NCBI RefSeq assembly: GCF_010994095.1
Contig: NZ_WJYO01000001.1
Span: 496,001-560,000, forward strand
Direction: 5' to 3'
Origin: Mumia xiangluensis
GTDB lineage: Bacteria > Actinomycetota > Actinomycetes > Propionibacteriales > Nocardioidaceae
Length of the DNA stretch: 64,000 nt
Below, piece by piece: positions 11,543 through 62,799 of this stretch (positions are counted from its first letter, which is position 1; every line of letters begins with the position of its first letter). The notes under the pieces are model-generated. The model ran no database searches, was not told the origin of the DNA, and worked only from the letters and a program-made list of their open reading frames with translations. The translations under genes were made by a program, and so were the position numbers.

Positions 11543-12298
11543 TCAGCGCCGCCGCGCCTCGACGAGCGTCCGCGTGGAGTGAGCGACGAACGGGCCGTCC
11601 GACGCGATCTGCTCGTGCAGGCGTCGCAGGTCGTCGGCGTACTGCCCGACGGTGAAGCCGGGCACGATCCAGATCACCTTCCGCAGGAAGTAGACGATCG
11701 CGCCGACGTCGTCGAACTCCATGCGCAACCGCTCTGTCCGCAGGTCGGCGATCTCGAGTCCCGCCGCCTCCGCGGCCGCGGCCTCGTCGTCGGGGTGACG
11801 CCCACGCCGGTGCTGCGGTCCGAGGGGCCCGAGGAGCTCCTCGGCCAGCTCGAACACCGACTCCGGCCCGACGTGCTGGGCGAGGTACGTGCCACCCGGG
11901 GCGAGCACCCGCGCGATCTCGCCCCACCAGATGGTCGCTGGGTGGCGACTGGTGACGAGGTCGAATGCGCCGTCCGCGAACGGGAGCGGCGGCTCGTCGG
12001 GATCGGCGACGACGACGACCCCGCGCGGATGCAGCAGGCGGGTCGCCTTGGCGAGGTTCGGCGGCCACGACTCCGTCGCGACGGCGACCGACGGGAACCG
12101 CTCGGCCCCGGCGAGCACCTCGCCACCGCCGGTCTGGACGTCGAGCGCGGCGGTGGCCGTCGCCCAGCGGTCGCTCATCAGCCGTTGGTAGCCCCACGAC
12201 GGTCGCTGCTCGCTCGCGCGCCCGCTGAGCCAGGAGAAGTCCCAGCCGGCGACGTCGGCGGCCTCGGCCTCCGCGACGAGCTCGTCGTACGACCTCAC
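11543..12298 (-). CDS. Class I SAM-dependent methyltransferase
   Basis: 251-aa methyltransferase-like protein. The central region shows LHPRGVVVVADPDEPPLPFADGAFDLVTSRHPATIWW, where strand beta4 and the P-F-A-D-G-A-F-D motif are typical of methyltransferase 11-type enzymes; IARVLAPGGTYLAQHVG is motif post-III. The usual glycine-rich GxGxG loop is poorly conserved (QTGGGE), as in several actinobacterial members. GTG 12298 overlaps the upstream regulator's stop (GTGA), so expression depends on that 911-aa regulator. Substrate unknown. Confidence 0.83.
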   Translation of the reverse strand: MRSYDELVAEAEAADVAGWDFSWLSGRASEQRPSWGYQRLMSDRWATATAALDVQTGGGEVLAGAERFPSVAVATESWPPNLAKATRLLHPRGVVVVADPDEPPLPFADGAFDLVTSRHPATIWWGEIARVLAPGGTYLAQHVGPESVFELAEELLGPLGPQHRRGRHPDDEAAAAEAAGLEIADLRTERLRMEFDDVGAIVYFLRKVIWIVPGFTVGQYADDLRRLHEQIASDGPFVAHSTRTLVEARRR

Positions 12299-15030
12299 GC
12301 GAGCTCCTTCGCGAGGGCGCGCGTCTCGCCGCTCTCGTACGCCGCCCCCATCGCGTCCCAGGCGCTCTCGGACGCCGCCAGGAGCGCGGGATCGCGATCG
12401 CGGCGGCCGCGGGTGCGAAGCAGCGCCGCCGCCACCCACCGGTGATGTGCGGCGTAGGTGTCGGCGCGCTCGATCAGACCGTCGGCGTCCGGGGCGTCGA
12501 GGACGACGGCGAGCTCAGCGGCGGCGACCGCGGCGTACCCGTCGAAGCGACCGGGGACGAAGGTCTGCGCGACCTCGGCCAGCGCGCCCGTCAGGTCCCC
12601 GCCCTCCGCGAGCGCCACCCGGGCACGGACGAACGCCGCCCACGGGGCGAGGTTCGGCGACTCGGAGAGCGACGCGGGGCCAGCCACGCGCCGTGACCGC
12701 TCCCACCACAGCGCGTACGCCGAGCGGTCTCCGCGCAGCCCGGCTGCGAGCGCCGCCCCGAGGAGCGGACCGGCGAGGGAGACGTTGCGGAAGCGGCGGG
12801 TCGCCTCGACGTTGCGCCAGACTTCCGCAGCGGCGCGCTCGGCGTCGTCGAAGGCGCCGGCGAGCGCGAGCGGCGCGATCGCGCTGCCCTTCGCCCAGCA
12901 CGGGTGAGGCTCGAGCGCAGGGTTCGCGTCCACCCGGTGACAGGCGTCGAGGGCCAGGTCGAGGCGACCTGTCGCGACGGCGTACGACGCCACCGACCGC
13001 AGAGCGTCGACAACCTCGACCGCCCCACAGGGCTCGCGCTCGGCGGAGGCCGCCGTGACGATCTCGAGGCGCTCTGCGGAGAGGCGGAGCGACTCGTCGG
13101 GCCGACCGTCGAGCGCGGCGGCGGTCGAGGATGCGTCCAAGGCGGCGCTGAGGACGAGGATCTCGCCGCCGTGGCGCGCGGCAGCCACCGCCTCCGCGGC
13201 GGCTGCCGGCAGGACGTGCTGGTGCTCGGCTCCGGAGGCCCAGGCGCGCGCGGTCGCGAGGGAGGCGCGAGCGTGCTCGCCACCGCCCCCGAGCGCCTCG
13301 GCCTCCGTGAGCAGGGCAGCGAGCGTCGCGGCGTCGGGGTCGGCGAGGAATCCCGCACCGCGGAACCGCTCGGCGACCGCCACGGCCGTGGCGAGCGCGA
13401 CGGCGGCCGCGCCGGGATCGTCCACGCGTGCGGCGTCCGCCGCATCGAGGAGGAGCTGGTAGGCCTCACGGGCGTCGGACACCAGGTGGACGCAGGCCGC
13501 GGCGTCCGTGAGGTCGACCGCGGCGTCACTCCCCCGTACCGCCAGCGCCGCCGCCGTACGGAAGTGCTTGCCTGCCTCGGCGACGAACCCCCGCGCAAAG
13601 GCGAGCGTCGCCACGTCGCGGGCGAACGCCCGGGCTCCGGCGTCGGCAGCGGCCCTGGACGGGACGCAGCGGCGCAGGTCGTCCATCACGCCGTCGACGT
13701 CGTCCGCCCAACCGCCGAGCGTCGACGCTCCGTACGGGCGGGCCTCGACGAGGTCACGGGCTCGCGAGCGGGCCCACGCCGCGTACCGGCGCCGGGTCTG
13801 CGCCTCGTCGTCGGACGCGGCGAGGTGCTCACGGGCCAGCTCACGCACACCGACGAGGAGGGACCACCGGTCTGCCCCGTCAGCCCCGGCCGTACGGCGG
13901 ACCAGGCTCTTGTCGGCGAGACGCCCGAGGAGGTCCGCGACGCCGCCGCGCCCCTCGTCCGGGAGGAGCGCCGTGGCCGCCTCCAGATCGAACGGACCGG
14001 CCATCACCGAGACCGTGCGCAGGGCAGCCCGCTCGTCCTCGTCGAGCGCGGCGTGGCTCCACTCGACGACCGCGCGCAGCGAACGGTGCCGCCTGTCGGC
14101 GGGGCGCCCGAGCGTGAGAAGGCGGAGGACGTCGTCGAGACCCGCCTCGACCCCGGCCAGACCCATCGACGCCACCCGTGCCGCCGCGAGCTCGATCGCG
14201 AGCGGTGACCCGTCGAGACGTCGCCCTAGCGAGGCTGCCGCGTCGGTCGGCACCTCGACGGTCGGGTCCACGGCAGAGGAGCGCTCCACGAACAGCGCTG
14301 CCGCATCGCTGTCGGAGAGGGGACCGAGGTGGAAGACGGCTTCACCGGGGACGCCGAGGCGCTCGCGGCTGGTCACCAGGACGTGCAGGTCGGGCAGCGC
14401 GTCGGCGAGGTGGACGACGAGTGCCGCGACGTCGTCGGTGACGTGCTCGGCGTTGTCGAGGACGAGCAGCACCCGGCCCCGAAGCACGGCGGCGACCGCC
14501 TCCGTGAGGGTCACCTGCGGGCGTTGCGCCACCCCCAGCACGGTCGCGACCGCGGCGTCGACGGCACCCGCGGCGGCCGGCACGAGGTCGACGAACGCGC
14601 CTCTCGAGGCGAACCAGGAGCGCGACCGCTCGGCGACGGCGACGGCGACACGGGTCTTGCCAGCACCTCCCGGTCCGAGCACGGTCGTGATCCGGGACTC
14701 GGCGACGAGCCTGGCGACCGCGTCGACCTCCGCCGTACGCCCGACCAGGGACGTCCGGCCCCGCGGGAGACCGACCAGGTCGCCGACGGCACCGGTCTCG
14801 GCCCGTGCGGCCGCGCCCGCCGCCAGGGCCGCCAGCTCGCGCCGGTCGCGCGCCCCGAGCTTGCGCAGCAGCGACGAGACGTGGCTCTCCACCGTACGGA
14901 CCGAGAGGTGGAGGCGGTGCGCGATCTCGGCGTTCGTGCGGTGCTCGGCGACCGCGGCGAGGACGTCACGCTCCCGGGGCGAGACGGCGTCAACAGGCAG
15001 GTCCGGCACCCGCCCAGTATGCCGCGCCAC
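12295..15030 (-). CDS. Large ATPase regulator with N-terminal LuxR helix-turn-helix
   Basis: 911-aa signal-responsive regulator. Unlike LAL proteins its LuxR HTH is at the N terminus (residues 16-70: S-P-R-E-R-D-V-L, T-N-A-E-I-A, R-T-V-E-S-H-V). An NB-ARC/AAA-type ATPase follows: LVGRTAEVD at 95-103, Walker A GPGGAGKT at 119-126 and LLVLDNAEHV for Walker B. Residues about 400-911 are alanine-rich helices like TPR repeats, the likely sensor region. The GTG start at 15030 is provisional; GTG 15009 is also possible. It is coupled to the downstream methyltransferase and divergent from cupin-sigma genes. The ligand is unknown. Confidence 0.85.
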   Translation of the reverse strand: MARHTGRVPDLPVDAVSPRERDVLAAVAEHRTNAEIAHRLHLSVRTVESHVSSLLRKLGARDRRELAALAAGAAARAETGAVGDLVGLPRGRTSLVGRTAEVDAVARLVAESRITTVLGPGGAGKTRVAVAVAERSRSWFASRGAFVDLVPAAAGAVDAAVATVLGVAQRPQVTLTEAVAAVLRGRVLLVLDNAEHVTDDVAALVVHLADALPDLHVLVTSRERLGVPGEAVFHLGPLSDSDAAALFVERSSAVDPTVEVPTDAAASLGRRLDGSPLAIELAAARVASMGLAGVEAGLDDVLRLLTLGRPADRRHRSLRAVVEWSHAALDEDERAALRTVSVMAGPFDLEAATALLPDEGRGGVADLLGRLADKSLVRRTAGADGADRWSLLVGVRELAREHLAASDDEAQTRRRYAAWARSRARDLVEARPYGASTLGGWADDVDGVMDDLRRCVPSRAAADAGARAFARDVATLAFARGFVAEAGKHFRTAAALAVRGSDAAVDLTDAAACVHLVSDAREAYQLLLDAADAARVDDPGAAAVALATAVAVAERFRGAGFLADPDAATLAALLTEAEALGGGGEHARASLATARAWASGAEHQHVLPAAAAEAVAAARHGGEILVLSAALDASSTAAALDGRPDESLRLSAERLEIVTAASAEREPCGAVEVVDALRSVASYAVATGRLDLALDACHRVDANPALEPHPCWAKGSAIAPLALAGAFDDAERAAAEVWRNVEATRRFRNVSLAGPLLGAALAAGLRGDRSAYALWWERSRRVAGPASLSESPNLAPWAAFVRARVALAEGGDLTGALAEVAQTFVPGRFDGYAAVAAAELAVVLDAPDADGLIERADTYAAHHRWVAAALLRTRGRRDRDPALLAASESAWDAMGAAYESGETRALAKELA

Positions 15031-15059
15031 CGCCGTACCGATCGTGTCGATTCCGTGGT

Positions 15060-15082
15060 GGATCCGTGCTCGCCACGGATCC
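15060..15082. promoter_or_regulatory. Perfect inverted repeat between the LuxR regulator and the cupin
   Basis: GGATCCGTG (15060-15068) and CACGGATCC (15074-15082) form perfect 9-bp arms around 5 nt, in the 118-bp divergent gap. An additional TTCCGTGG lies just upstream (15051-15058). It is the best operator candidate for the neighbouring LuxR-type regulator and could control both directions. Confidence 0.55.
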
Positions 15083-15148
15083 GCGCGGCGGTGCCACCGG
15101 CCGAGGATCGAAGCATCACCTCACCGATCCCGCACGAAGGAGACTCAC

Positions 15149-15538
15149 ATGCTGATCGTCGCGAAGGAGTCCGACCTCCGCCTCCCCGGAAGCCGCACGA
15201 CGCGTTTCGAGGGCGAGGCGTACGGCTCGGGTGTCTCGTTCTTCCACGTCGCCAACGCGCCGGGGACGGGCCCGGACGCCCACGTCCACCCCTACTCCGA
15301 GACCTGGGTCGTCCTCTCGGGCATCGCGCACATCCGCACGGCCGACGGCGAGACGTACGGCGAGCCGGGCGATGTCGTCGTCGTGGGGCCGGGCACCGCC
15401 CACGGCTTCCGCGCCGTCGGTCCCGACGTCCTGCGGATGCTCTGCATCCATGCGTCGCCGCGGATCGAGCAGGACTTCCTCGACCATGCCCGTGCGAGCG
15501 AGCTCGCGGTGGTCTTCGACCCGGAGCCGGTCCGATGA
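15149..15538 (+). CDS. Small cupin protein coupled to an ECF sigma factor
   Basis: 129-aa single-cupin protein. The metal motif H-V-H-P-Y-S-E near residues 46-52 and the later GPGTAHGF give the usual HxH...E...H ligands; the barrel strands W-V-V-L-S-G and GEPGDVVVVGPG are clear. It is likely cytosolic. ATG 15149 has GAAGGAGA about 7 nt upstream. Its stop overlaps the sigma gene start as ATGA (15535-15538), so both are made together. Cupins act as enzymes or sensors; a ChrR-like partner role for the sigma factor is a hypothesis because no zinc anti-sigma domain is visible. Confidence 0.88.
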   Translation: MLIVAKESDLRLPGSRTTRFEGEAYGSGVSFFHVANAPGTGPDAHVHPYSETWVVLSGIAHIRTADGETYGEPGDVVVVGPGTAHGFRAVGPDVLRMLCIHASPRIEQDFLDHARASELAVVFDPEPVR

Positions 15539-16197
15539 GTGCGACGACGCTCGTCGACCGGCCGACCGTGGACCTGCTCGAGCTGGAGGAGTACCGGCAC
15601 GAGCTCACGGCGTTCTTCCGGCGCCGGCTCGCCTCGGCGGCAGAGGCCGACGACGCGCTCCAGGAGACGATGATCCGCGCCTGGCGTGGCCGCGCGACGT
15701 ACCAGGGACGGGCCTCGGTCCGGTCGTGGCTCTACGGGATCGCGACGAACGTCTGCCGTGATGCCTGGAGGTCCGCCGCACGCCGTCCGCGCCCGATGGA
15801 TCTCGGCGCGACCGACGGCGCGGCGCTCGCCCTCGTCGGTGCCGCGGCAGATCCCGACCCGGCGGACGCGGCGGACGAGCGTGAGGACGTGCGGGCAGCG
15901 TTCACCTCCGTCGTACGACGCCTCCCGCCCCGCCAGCGTGCCGTGCTGGTGCTTCGTGACGTCCTGCGCTGGCGGGCGGCGGAGGTCGCGACGCTGCTCG
16001 ACACGTCCGTGGCATCGGTGAACAGCGCTCTCCAGCGCGCCCGCGGGACGATGCGGGACGCCGACGCCCGGGACGACGTCGTCGGCGCGGCGGACGCGCG
16101 GCTGGTCGACGAGTACGACGCGGCCTTCGCGGCGTACGACGTCGACCGACTCGTCGCCCTGCTGCGCGCCGACGCGCTCACGGCCGCGCGTAGCTGA
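15535..16197 (+). CDS. ECF sigma factor lacking most of its SnoaL domain
   Basis: 220-aa sigma-70 family factor. Region 2 (about 20-85) has the E-A-D-D-A-L-Q-E-T-M-I-R-A-W-R helix and SWLYGIATNVCRDAWR; region 4 (about 118-170) has LPPRQRAVLVLRDVLRW and VASVNSALQRAR. These are close to SigG/SigJ-type factors that carry a 120-aa SnoaL domain. Here only its first helix (LVDEYDAAFAAYDVDRLVAL) remains before TAG, and the gene overlaps the convergent reductase. ATG 15535 overlaps the cupin stop. No anti-sigma gene is adjacent. The shortening could alter regulation or inactivate it. Confidence 0.85.
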   Translation: MSATTLVDRPTVDLLELEEYRHELTAFFRRRLASAAEADDALQETMIRAWRGRATYQGRASVRSWLYGIATNVCRDAWRSAARRPRPMDLGATDGAALALVGAAADPDPADAADEREDVRAAFTSVVRRLPPRQRAVLVLRDVLRWRAAEVATLLDTSVASVNSALQRARGTMRDADARDDVVGAADARLVDEYDAAFAAYDVDRLVALLRADALTAARS

Positions 16198-16750
16198 GCA
16201 CGGCGCACCCGTTGTCGAACGTCGCCACCTGCTCGAGCGCGAAGGACGTCGGCCGGAAGCCGGTGACGAACGCGGGGATGCCCGAGCCGGCGACCACGGG
16301 GTACTTCTTGACGACGACCCGGTCGATCTCGTCCAGCAGCAGGCCAGCCAGCGCGCCCCCACCCGCGAGGTAGACGTCGTGAGGCGAGTCCTCGGCCTTG
16401 AGCTCGCGCACCCGAGCCACAGGGTCGGCCGCGGTGACCTCGACGTCTGGGTCCGCCGGCATGAGGGTGCGGCTGAAGACCACGGTGCGCAGGTGGGCGT
16501 ACGGGTTGGTGACGCCGAGCGCCAGCGCGGGGTCGTACGTCCGCCGGCCCATGACGATCGTGTCGAAGCGTGCGTTCGGGGTCTCGTCCACGCCCATCGC
16601 CCGGCGCACGTGGGTGGGGAGGGCGTCACCGAAGTCGGTCGCCATGAACCGGGTGAACTCCTCGGACAGGGGGAAGAAGTCGACCTCGTCGTCGGGTCCG
16701 GCGATGAAGCCGTCGAGGGTCGTGCCGATGTAGTAGGTCATCTTTCGCAT
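16178..16750 (-). CDS. Dihydrofolate reductase family (RibD C-terminal) protein
   Basis: 190-aa reductase of the RibD-C/DHFR-like superfamily. The N-terminal YYIGTTLDGFIAGPD strand-loop, the M-G-R-R-T-Y-D-P loop, the V-F-S-R-T-L strand and D-V-Y-L-A-G-G-G-A-L-A-G-L-L-L-D-E-I-D-R segment are all typical. These use NADPH on pterin- or flavin-like substrates; the stand-alone members are mostly of unknown substrate. ATG 16750 is chosen (16741 is also in frame). It shares a divergent dyad-bearing promoter with a TetR gene, so it is probably regulated by it. Its 3' end overlaps the truncated sigma gene by 20 bp. Confidence 0.87.
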   Translation of the reverse strand: MRKMTYYIGTTLDGFIAGPDDEVDFFPLSEEFTRFMATDFGDALPTHVRRAMGVDETPNARFDTIVMGRRTYDPALALGVTNPYAHLRTVVFSRTLMPADPDVEVTAADPVARVRELKAEDSPHDVYLAGGGALAGLLLDEIDRVVVKKYPVVAGSGIPAFVTGFRPTSFALEQVATFDNGCAVLSYARP

Positions 16751-16827: not shown

Positions 16828-17406
16828 ATGGTCAGCAACCCTCGACGTCGTACGACGCTCCTCGACGCGGGAATCGACGTGCTCGCGCGCCTCGGCGCCC
16901 GCGGGCTCACGTTCCGTGCGGTCGACGACGAGGCCGGCGTGCCGACGGGGACGACGTCCAACTACTTCGCGAACAGGGACGCGCTGCTGCGCGAGCTGGG
17001 CGACCACGTGTTCGTCCGCCTCGCGCCCGACCCCGCCGTCGTCGCGGAGCGATTGGCAGCTCCCCCCTCACGCGCGCTCGAGGTCGTGCTCATGCAGGAC
17101 ATCGTCGAACGCGCGCAGGCCGACCGGTCCGGCTATCTCGCGATGTTCGAGCTGCGCCTCGAGGCGTCCCGGCGCCCGGAGCTCGAGGTCGCCTTCACGG
17201 CCGGCTACCGCGCCAACCTCGACGACATCACCGCAGCGCACGTCGAGGGTGGCTTCCCGGGCGGCGACGCGACCGCGCTCCTGCTCTATCTCGCGATGAA
17301 CGGACTCCTGCTCGAGCACCTCACGCTGCCCGGCGTCCTCCCTGGCGGCGACTCCGCGCTGCCCGGGCTCGTCCAGCAGCTGGTGGAGACCATCGTCCCC
17401 GAGTGA
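16828..17406 (+). CDS. TetR family regulator
   Basis: 192-aa one-domain TetR protein. The HTH (about 8-52) reads T-T-L-L-D-A-G-I-D-V-L-A-R-L-G-A-R-G-L-T-F-R-A-V and G-V-P-T-G-T-T-S-N-Y-F-A-N-R-D-A-L-L. The ligand domain has the usual all-helical pattern ending in LLLYLAMNGLLLEHLTLPG. ATG 16828 is preferred on the GCAGGA spacing of 8 nt; ATG 16819 is possible. It is divergent from the DHFR-family reductase. Ligand unknown. Confidence 0.88.
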   Translation: MVSNPRRRTTLLDAGIDVLARLGARGLTFRAVDDEAGVPTGTTSNYFANRDALLRELGDHVFVRLAPDPAVVAERLAAPPSRALEVVLMQDIVERAQADRSGYLAMFELRLEASRRPELEVAFTAGYRANLDDITAAHVEGGFPGGDATALLLYLAMNGLLLEHLTLPGVLPGGDSALPGLVQQLVETIVPE

Positions 17407-61794: not shown

Positions 61795-62799
61795 TCATGA
61801 CGCGGGCAGGCGCTCTGGCAGCTCGAGCAGCGGGAACTGGTCCGCGTGGAACGTGATGATCTCGGTGATCGCTCCGCCGGCGATGCGTAGGACGTCGATC
61901 GTCAGCGGAAGGTAGGCCCCCTCCTCCGCGTGCCAGTGGTAGTAGGCAACGGCGGGCTGCCTGTTCACGGAGGTGGGGACCGTGCGCAGGCCCGTCATGC
62001 CCTCGAAGCCGCTCTCGACCCAGTAGTCCACCACCGCGTCGCGGCCGACGTACAGGCCCGGTGTCGGCGGCATCGAAGTGCGGACGTCGTCCGTCACGAG
62101 CGCGGCGAGCCTGTCGATGTCGGTGTCCACGCTGGCGTCGGTGTAGCGCCGTACGAGCTCGCGCGTTCCGAGGTCCTCGTCGCCGCCGGCCCAGTCCTGC
62201 CGCTCGGCAGGCAGGTGCTCGCGCATGCCGGCGCGGGCCCGCTGCAGCGCGCTGTTGACGGAGTTGACGGTGTCCCCCAGGAGCTCCGCGACGTCCTTCG
62301 CCGGCCAGCCGAGCACGTCCCGCATGATCAGCACGGCCCGCGGGCGCGGCGCGAGGTGCTGGACGGCGACCAGGTAGGCCAGCTCGATCGTCTCGCGGGC
62401 GACGGCGACGGCCTCCGGCTCGTCCGCGTCGTCGGCGGGCAGCTCGTCGAGCAACCGGTCCGGGTAGGGCTGCAGCCACAGCACCTCGCCCCCGGTCGCG
62501 GGTTCCGGGCGGCGCTTGGCAAGCAGGTCCAGGCACGCGTTGGTGGCGATCCGGTACAGCCAGGCCCGGAACGTCGACCGCCCCTCGAACGTCTCCCGCC
62601 GCCGCCACGCCCGGAGGAAGGTTTCCTGCACGGTGTCCTCGGCATCCTGGAACGACCCGAGCATCCGGTAGCAGTGCACATGAAGCTCACGCCGGTGCCG
62701 CTCCACCAACCGCGAGAACTCTGGCTCGTCGACCTTGCTGAGTCCGCTTCGTTCCGGTTCGTTCATGCCGAGCTCCTCCAGCCGCACGTCCGCACTCAT
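61795..62799 (-). CDS. SigG-type ECF sigma factor with SnoaL domain
   Basis: 334-aa sigma factor. Region 2 (about 32-90) has the H-C-Y-R-M-L-G-S-F-Q-D-A-E-D-T-V-Q-E-T-F-L-R-A-W-R helix, region 4 (about 145-205) L-A-P-R-P-R-A-V-L-I-M-R-D-V-L-G-W, and a C-terminal SnoaL domain (about 215-330) is complete. ATG 62799 has GGAAGGA 7 nt upstream. It resembles SigG-like ECF factors, stress-induced in mycobacteria. Convergent with the epimerase. No anti-sigma gene is adjacent. Confidence 0.9.
   Translation of the reverse strand: MSADVRLEELGMNEPERSGLSKVDEPEFSRLVERHRRELHVHCYRMLGSFQDAEDTVQETFLRAWRRRETFEGRSTFRAWLYRIATNACLDLLAKRRPEPATGGEVLWLQPYPDRLLDELPADDADEPEAVAVARETIELAYLVAVQHLAPRPRAVLIMRDVLGWPAKDVAELLGDTVNSVNSALQRARAGMREHLPAERQDWAGGDEDLGTRELVRRYTDASVDTDIDRLAALVTDDVRTSMPPTPGLYVGRDAVVDYWVESGFEGMTGLRTVPTSVNRQPAVAYYHWHAEEGAYLPLTIDVLRIAGGAITEIITFHADQFPLLELPERLPAS

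Follow-up and report, generated by a model that had tools for sequence, protein, structure and literature searches.

Two groups of genes diverge at this locus of the window, by which we mean the whole 64-kb stretch of Mumia DNA that was analysed. A regulator gene, here called REG, lies on the minus strand and is read away from a cupin-sigma factor pair on the plus strand, and the gap that they share holds a perfect dyad. The features of the locus are:

11543-12298, minus strand: class I SAM methyltransferase, translated from GTG 12298
12295-15009, minus strand: REG, with an N-terminal LuxR/GerE helix-turn-helix (HTH), a STAND-type ATPase and a helical C-terminal region; 904 aa from a conserved GTG
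12295-15030, minus strand: longest open reading frame (ORF) for REG, 911 aa
15016-15021, minus strand: CATACT, -10 element of a putative leaderless REG promoter, with the predicted +1 at the G of GTG 15009
15052-15057, minus strand: third half-site, CACGGA, on the REG side, 11 bp from the near arm of the core
15060-15082: perfect dyad GGATCCGTG-CTCGC-CACGGATCC, arms of 9 bp with zero mismatches
15063-15079: operator core TCCGTG-N5-CACGGA, 17 bp, centred on 15071
15149-15538, plus strand: single-domain cupin, 129 aa, matching the Cupin_2 profile
15535-16197, plus strand: ECF sigma factor of the SigG/SigX5 (ECF56-like) type, 220 aa, matching the PRK08241 and TIGR02960 profiles
16178-16750, minus strand: RibD_C/dihydrofolate-reductase-like gene, convergent with the sigma gene
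16828-17406, plus strand: TetR regulator, divergent from the RibD_C gene

The cupin and sigma genes are translationally coupled, since the sigma start lies inside an ATGA overlap with the cupin stop, an arrangement kept at all four Mumia loci that carry the pair. The methyltransferase is coupled to REG in the same manner by a GTGA overlap, its GTG 12298 lying on the REG stop. Downstream, the sigma stop falls 20 bp inside the convergent RibD_C gene (16178-16197), and this overlap has the same length in 4/4 Mumia loci. The original prediction had described two coupled pairs of genes diverging from a 118-bp gap, and the genes, their coupling and their divergence are all as described; it is the width of the gap that probably changes. 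CATACT is followed by exactly 6 nt and then by the GTG at the REG start, and this arrangement is exact in 4/4 Mumia loci. The true REG start is more likely this GTG at 15009, read as leaderless, than the longest-ORF start at 15030, and the gap between REG and cupin would then be 139 bp.

REG matches the GerE profile (3e-15) and, weakly, AAA_22/AAA_16. The HTH occupies residues 16-70 of the 911-aa ORF, the P-loop GPGGxGKT at 112-119 is invariant, and the recognition helix SVRTVESHVSxLLRK is nearly invariant among REG homologues. REG proteins are 74-78% identical within Mumia (dN 0.15-0.19, dS 0.7-0.86) and 50-55% identical to those of Amycolatopsis. The coding sequences of the locus are under purifying selection.

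The dyad stands where the original prediction had placed it, exact and with 9-bp arms. The centre of its core is 62 bp from the REG start and 78 bp from the cupin ATG, and across Mumia these distances are 61-62 bp and 75-79 bp. The exact 17-bp core is present in a single copy in the window. Among the six Mumia genomes scanned, the exact core with a family-like spacer occurs once in each of the four that bear REG, and it is absent from both that do not. A wider Mumia regulon was considered and rejected: the one-mismatch sites checked were without the third half-site and lay mostly inside long reading frames.

Between the operator and the cupin, at 15098-15112 of the window, we observed a CCGA[CG]GATCGA block that is present in 4/4 Mumia and not in Amycolatopsis. 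This block is a possible promoter element linked to the sigma factor. A sigma-autoregulated promoter was rejected, as the spacing from the block to GGATCC gave no convincing ECF promoter fit, and no promoter for the sigma factor was identified at the locus.

REG, cupin and sigma genes are syntenic in four of six Mumia genomes (the window genome and three of five congeners), where they are flanked by the RibD_C and TetR genes; the other two congeners are without the whole set. The methyltransferase is found at two of the four loci, that is in one of the three congeners with the module, which rules out the four-gene module of the original prediction and leaves the methyltransferase dispensable and incidental. 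The RibD_C-TetR pair is also found without REG, cupin or sigma genes in other members of the family. A close cupin orthologue is confined to the four Mumia among 295 genomes of the family, with distant relatives in two others, and a scan of genome contigs found full-length cupins of about 70% identity in three Amycolatopsis. In all three of these REG diverges from the cupin and the dyad core lies between them. At the two Amycolatopsis loci whose downstream sequence was read (L050 and L052), the next gene after the cupin encodes a DUF998 membrane protein, possibly a second member of the regulated operon, and there is no sigma gene; a sigma gene beside the cupin was seen in Mumia only. Because Amycolatopsis has the set without it, REG, operator and cupin appear to form the older unit, to which the sigma factor was added in Mumia, and on this synteny the cupin's older partner is REG. 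The co-occurrence that had been predicted thus reaches beyond close relatives for REG, cupin and dyad, and stops at Mumia for the sigma factor.

Further REG homologues came from searches that covered the phylum (396 genomes), one large-genome genus (150 genomes) and another order (299 genomes). When all hexamer-arm palindromes with spacers of 0-12 were counted in 40 usable upstream regions of distant homologues, TCCGTG-N5-CACGGA was present in 19; the runner-up, present in 4, is an overlapping reading of the same site. Whole homologue loci (224 kb) hold 33 exact copies of the core, whereas 89 other permutations of the half-site average 0.10. At least one exact copy is found in 28/41 loci, which are partly non-independent, and the site occurs in at least eight actinobacterial families. 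Of the 13 loci at which no exact copy was found, three are truncated or mis-anchored and L091 has a 4-bp spacer (N4) in the core; most of the others match 9-11 of the 12 core positions. Two loci (L090 and L092) have a Ser-to-Asn change in the recognition helix (SVRTVENHV) together with altered half-sites of the TCGGTG/CACGCA type, possibly a change of specificity.

At 24 of 27 core copies upstream of REG genes there is a third CACGGA, with one mismatch or none, at a distance of 5 or 6 bp from the core. It is always on the REG-proximal side, the opposite side showing no such preference, and some homologues have a fourth half-site. The asymmetry of the array suggests that REG may bind as a row of three or more subunits, in a manner conceivable for STAND multimers.

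The genes that accompany REG vary (VOC, PNPOx, RibD_C, AHSA1, methyltransferase, hydrolase and cupin) and the operator remains constant. Core copies also stand ahead of partners that are not divergent from REG, including an AHSA1 gene downstream of REG (L093, L097), a methyltransferase gene convergent with REG (L104, L108, L109, L111), a hydrolase-REG operon (L094) and an operon of a RibD_C-like gene and REG (L112). At five loci (L079, L080, L084, L085 and L086) the exact operator recurs about 550-660 bp beyond the REG stop, ahead of a small gene (...AEERAAMKE...) that is read toward REG; the piece of this gene that we tested had no Pfam match. The placement of the sites suggests that the REG homologues there control a pair of flanking genes.

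Ten large-genome relatives with REG together have 30 exact sites, of which 13 fall at the REG locus; ten genomes in which REG was not detected have 18. Roughly two copies per genome are thus background for the bare 12-base pattern, and above this level the REG locus is strongly enriched for the core. The distance from operator to REG start ranges from 19 to 141 bp across homologues, so no single mode of action is expected for all of them. A GATAAT -10 element stands at the REG start in the large-genome genus, and the third half-site extends into it, as would suit autorepression by REG; the spacing in Mumia would allow activation too. REG may thus act with either sign.

Within Mumia the sigma factor is the fastest evolving member of the set (63-73% identity). 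It has sigma2 and sigma4 regions of the SigG/SigX5 type and matches PRK08241 (1.2e-63, profile positions 27-248 of 343) and TIGR02960 (SigX5; 2.6e-59, positions 10-235 of 322); with the C-terminus missing, neither match reaches the whole-protein cut-off. Its best PDB match is 7qh5, and it also matches 5xe7/SigJ, aligned to SigJ residues 5-204, so that its own end corresponds to SigJ residue 204. These similarities suggest that it belongs to ECF56, a group described as SnoaL_2-bearing factors exclusively and including SigG1, which has a C-terminal SnoaL_2 domain and a separate anti-sigma factor, RsfG (PMC7730460). No SnoaL domain profile matched the 220-aa protein, which ends before the DATQSMPP strand of its closest paralogues, so that in 4/4 Mumia the SnoaL domain is lost after its first helices. 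The claim that this sigma factor is without its normal regulatory domain is therefore borne out, the missing part being SnoaL. The cupin-linked forms have 211-228 aa, compared with 292-322 aa for Mumia paralogues with the full SnoaL domain, and they form one clade (support 100/99). No SnoaL remnant was found 3' of the sigma gene, where the convergent RibD_C gene lies, and no RsfG-like gene was recognised next to it. The simplest account would be that the junction arose once, in the ancestor of Mumia. The sigma4 region has dN 0.08-0.14 and dS 0.5-0.8, and the tail is loosely constrained. Elsewhere in the window (62077-62739, minus strand) there is a second SigG/SigX5-type ECF sigma factor, 48% identical and full length with SnoaL, which is conserved in other Mumia.

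The effect of such a cut has been measured in group ECF41, in which proteins shortened to 204/206 aa were about 20-fold and 120-fold more active, and activity was lost when the whole extension was removed (PMC3426412). Since the same cut position in ECF41 gives a hyperactive sigma factor, the Mumia protein is probably without a brake, its control having moved from a fused domain to transcription by REG. ECF56 is not ECF41, and SigG1 has its own anti-sigma factor, so the truncation may fail to activate.

The cupin has an intact and conserved metal-ligand motif, H45-x-H47-x3-E51 ... H85 (HxHxxxE...H). It is 83-88% identical within Mumia, 70-71% identical to the Amycolatopsis cupins, and has a dN/dS of 0.11-0.26. 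In addition to Cupin_2 it has a weak AraC_binding match; a profile search found no ZAS-like anti-sigma domain on it, and among solved structures there was no close relative (best E 4e-6). The cupin may have a sensor role or, as with most partners of REG homologues, be a small enzyme, and its occurrence apart from the sigma factor in Amycolatopsis speaks for the enzyme.

Three other explanations of the locus were weighed. The dyad could be the site of some other regulator, such as a global factor or the neighbouring TetR, given that REG binding is a prediction from sequence and that 17-bp palindromes are used by HTH regulators of several families. However, the site tracks REG homologues through differing partner genes and bacterial families, in Mumia it is found only in REG-bearing genomes and once in each, and related genomes have the TetR-RibD_C pair at loci without detected REG, all of which makes another regulator very improbable. 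We infer that REG binds TCCGTG-N5-CACGGA, since the site stays with the REG family while the partner genes change. The predicted use of the dyad by the ATPase regulator is in this way supported from sequence, and this half of the original prediction is well supported, with a reach well beyond the window.

The other half, in which the cupin replaces the sensory domain of the sigma factor, is possible but weakened. A cupin acting in trans as a ChrR-like sensor or anti-sigma factor would bind the sigma core in place of SnoaL and release it on ligand or metal. The strict translational coupling in 4/4 Mumia and the loss of SnoaL in exactly the cupin-adjacent sigma factor fit such a role, as do the cupin fold of the ChrR sensor domain and the four ECF41 operons that encode cupins (PMC3426412; PMC8999054). 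The same cupin nevertheless accompanies REG and operator without a sigma factor in Amycolatopsis, evolves far more slowly than the protein that it would have to match, and has no ZAS-like domain, and we regard a sensor role as unlikely. We also doubt that the sigma gene is a remnant in decay, which would have joined the cupin operon horizontally as an ECF gene, been broken where it meets RibD_C and stayed on as a functionless passenger. The truncation does coincide with the boundary of the RibD_C-TetR pair, which stands alone elsewhere, the sigma factor evolves faster with a loosely constrained tail, and Amycolatopsis is without it; but a decaying gene would not readily explain an open frame, a coupled start and an identical 20-bp overlap in four species, a strongly constrained sigma4 region, or short forms that make up a single clade.

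We therefore lean towards a local, self-contained circuit in which REG at a three-part operator gates transcription of the cupin and of a sigma factor without a brake. The association of operator and family, the synteny, the truncation and the purifying selection are read directly from the sequences; binding by REG, multimer formation, the sign of regulation, the activities of sigma factor and cupin, and a ligand are inferred. REG subunits would bind the inverted pair TCCGTG-N5-CACGGA and the third CACGGA one helical turn nearer REG, and bound REG would control the divergent cupin operon as well as the REG gene itself. Through the REG family the operator would have been kept and the partner gene swapped, usually for a small enzyme-like protein, the partner in Mumia and Amycolatopsis being the cupin. 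The Mumia cupin operon would then have acquired an ECF56-like sigma factor, whose putative inhibitory SnoaL domain was cut at the RibD_C junction with retention of a short post-sigma4 stub that ECF41-type sigma factors need for activity. Such a sigma factor would probably be active whenever made, and control would lie in REG-gated transcription and in coupling to cupin translation. A broader proposal, in which a widespread class of N-terminal-LuxR STAND regulators reads a three-half-site operator with exchangeable partners and the cupin is in addition the in-trans ligand sensor of the captured sigma factor, strikes us as quite unlikely.

STAND-type LuxR regulators are abundant in actinomycetes and their sites are seldom known. 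Our search of the literature, confined to open-access papers, found no description of this operator or of N-terminal-LuxR STAND regulators carrying it. With a precise operator common to the family, dozens of uncharacterised regulators can be tested directly together with their target genes, and partners can be assigned by sequence. The Mumia branch is also a natural experiment, an ECF56-like sigma factor minus its fused regulatory domain and still under selection, which could show whether SnoaL acts as a brake, as an activator or in both ways.

REG resembles the LuxR-type STAND ATPases of the LAL/MalT group, for example SCO6993, in combining a STAND-type ATPase with one LuxR-type HTH, but the HTH is C-terminal in LAL proteins and N-terminal in REG. 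MalT-type proteins work as multimers that bind repeated boxes. SCO6993 binds palindromes, including at its own promoter (PMC9628970), and no consensus could be derived for it, whereas the REG family has a defined, shared operator and in Mumia appears to exert local, single-site control. The Mumia sigma factor shares with SigG1/ECF56 (TIGR02960, PRK08241) the sigma2-sigma4 core, the long linker and the first SnoaL helices, and differs in missing the SnoaL_2 domain. ECF41 sigma factors (SigJ, Ecf41Bli) have a SnoaL-type extension whose partial removal yields an active sigma factor, and a few of their operons contain cupin genes (PMC3426412); they are a different ECF group, and in Mumia the truncation is natural and fixed in a clade. 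Like the Mumia pair, ECF11 RpoE-ChrR associates an ECF sigma factor with a cupin fold, but ChrR fuses a zinc anti-sigma domain to its cupin-like domain, whereas the Mumia cupin stands alone.
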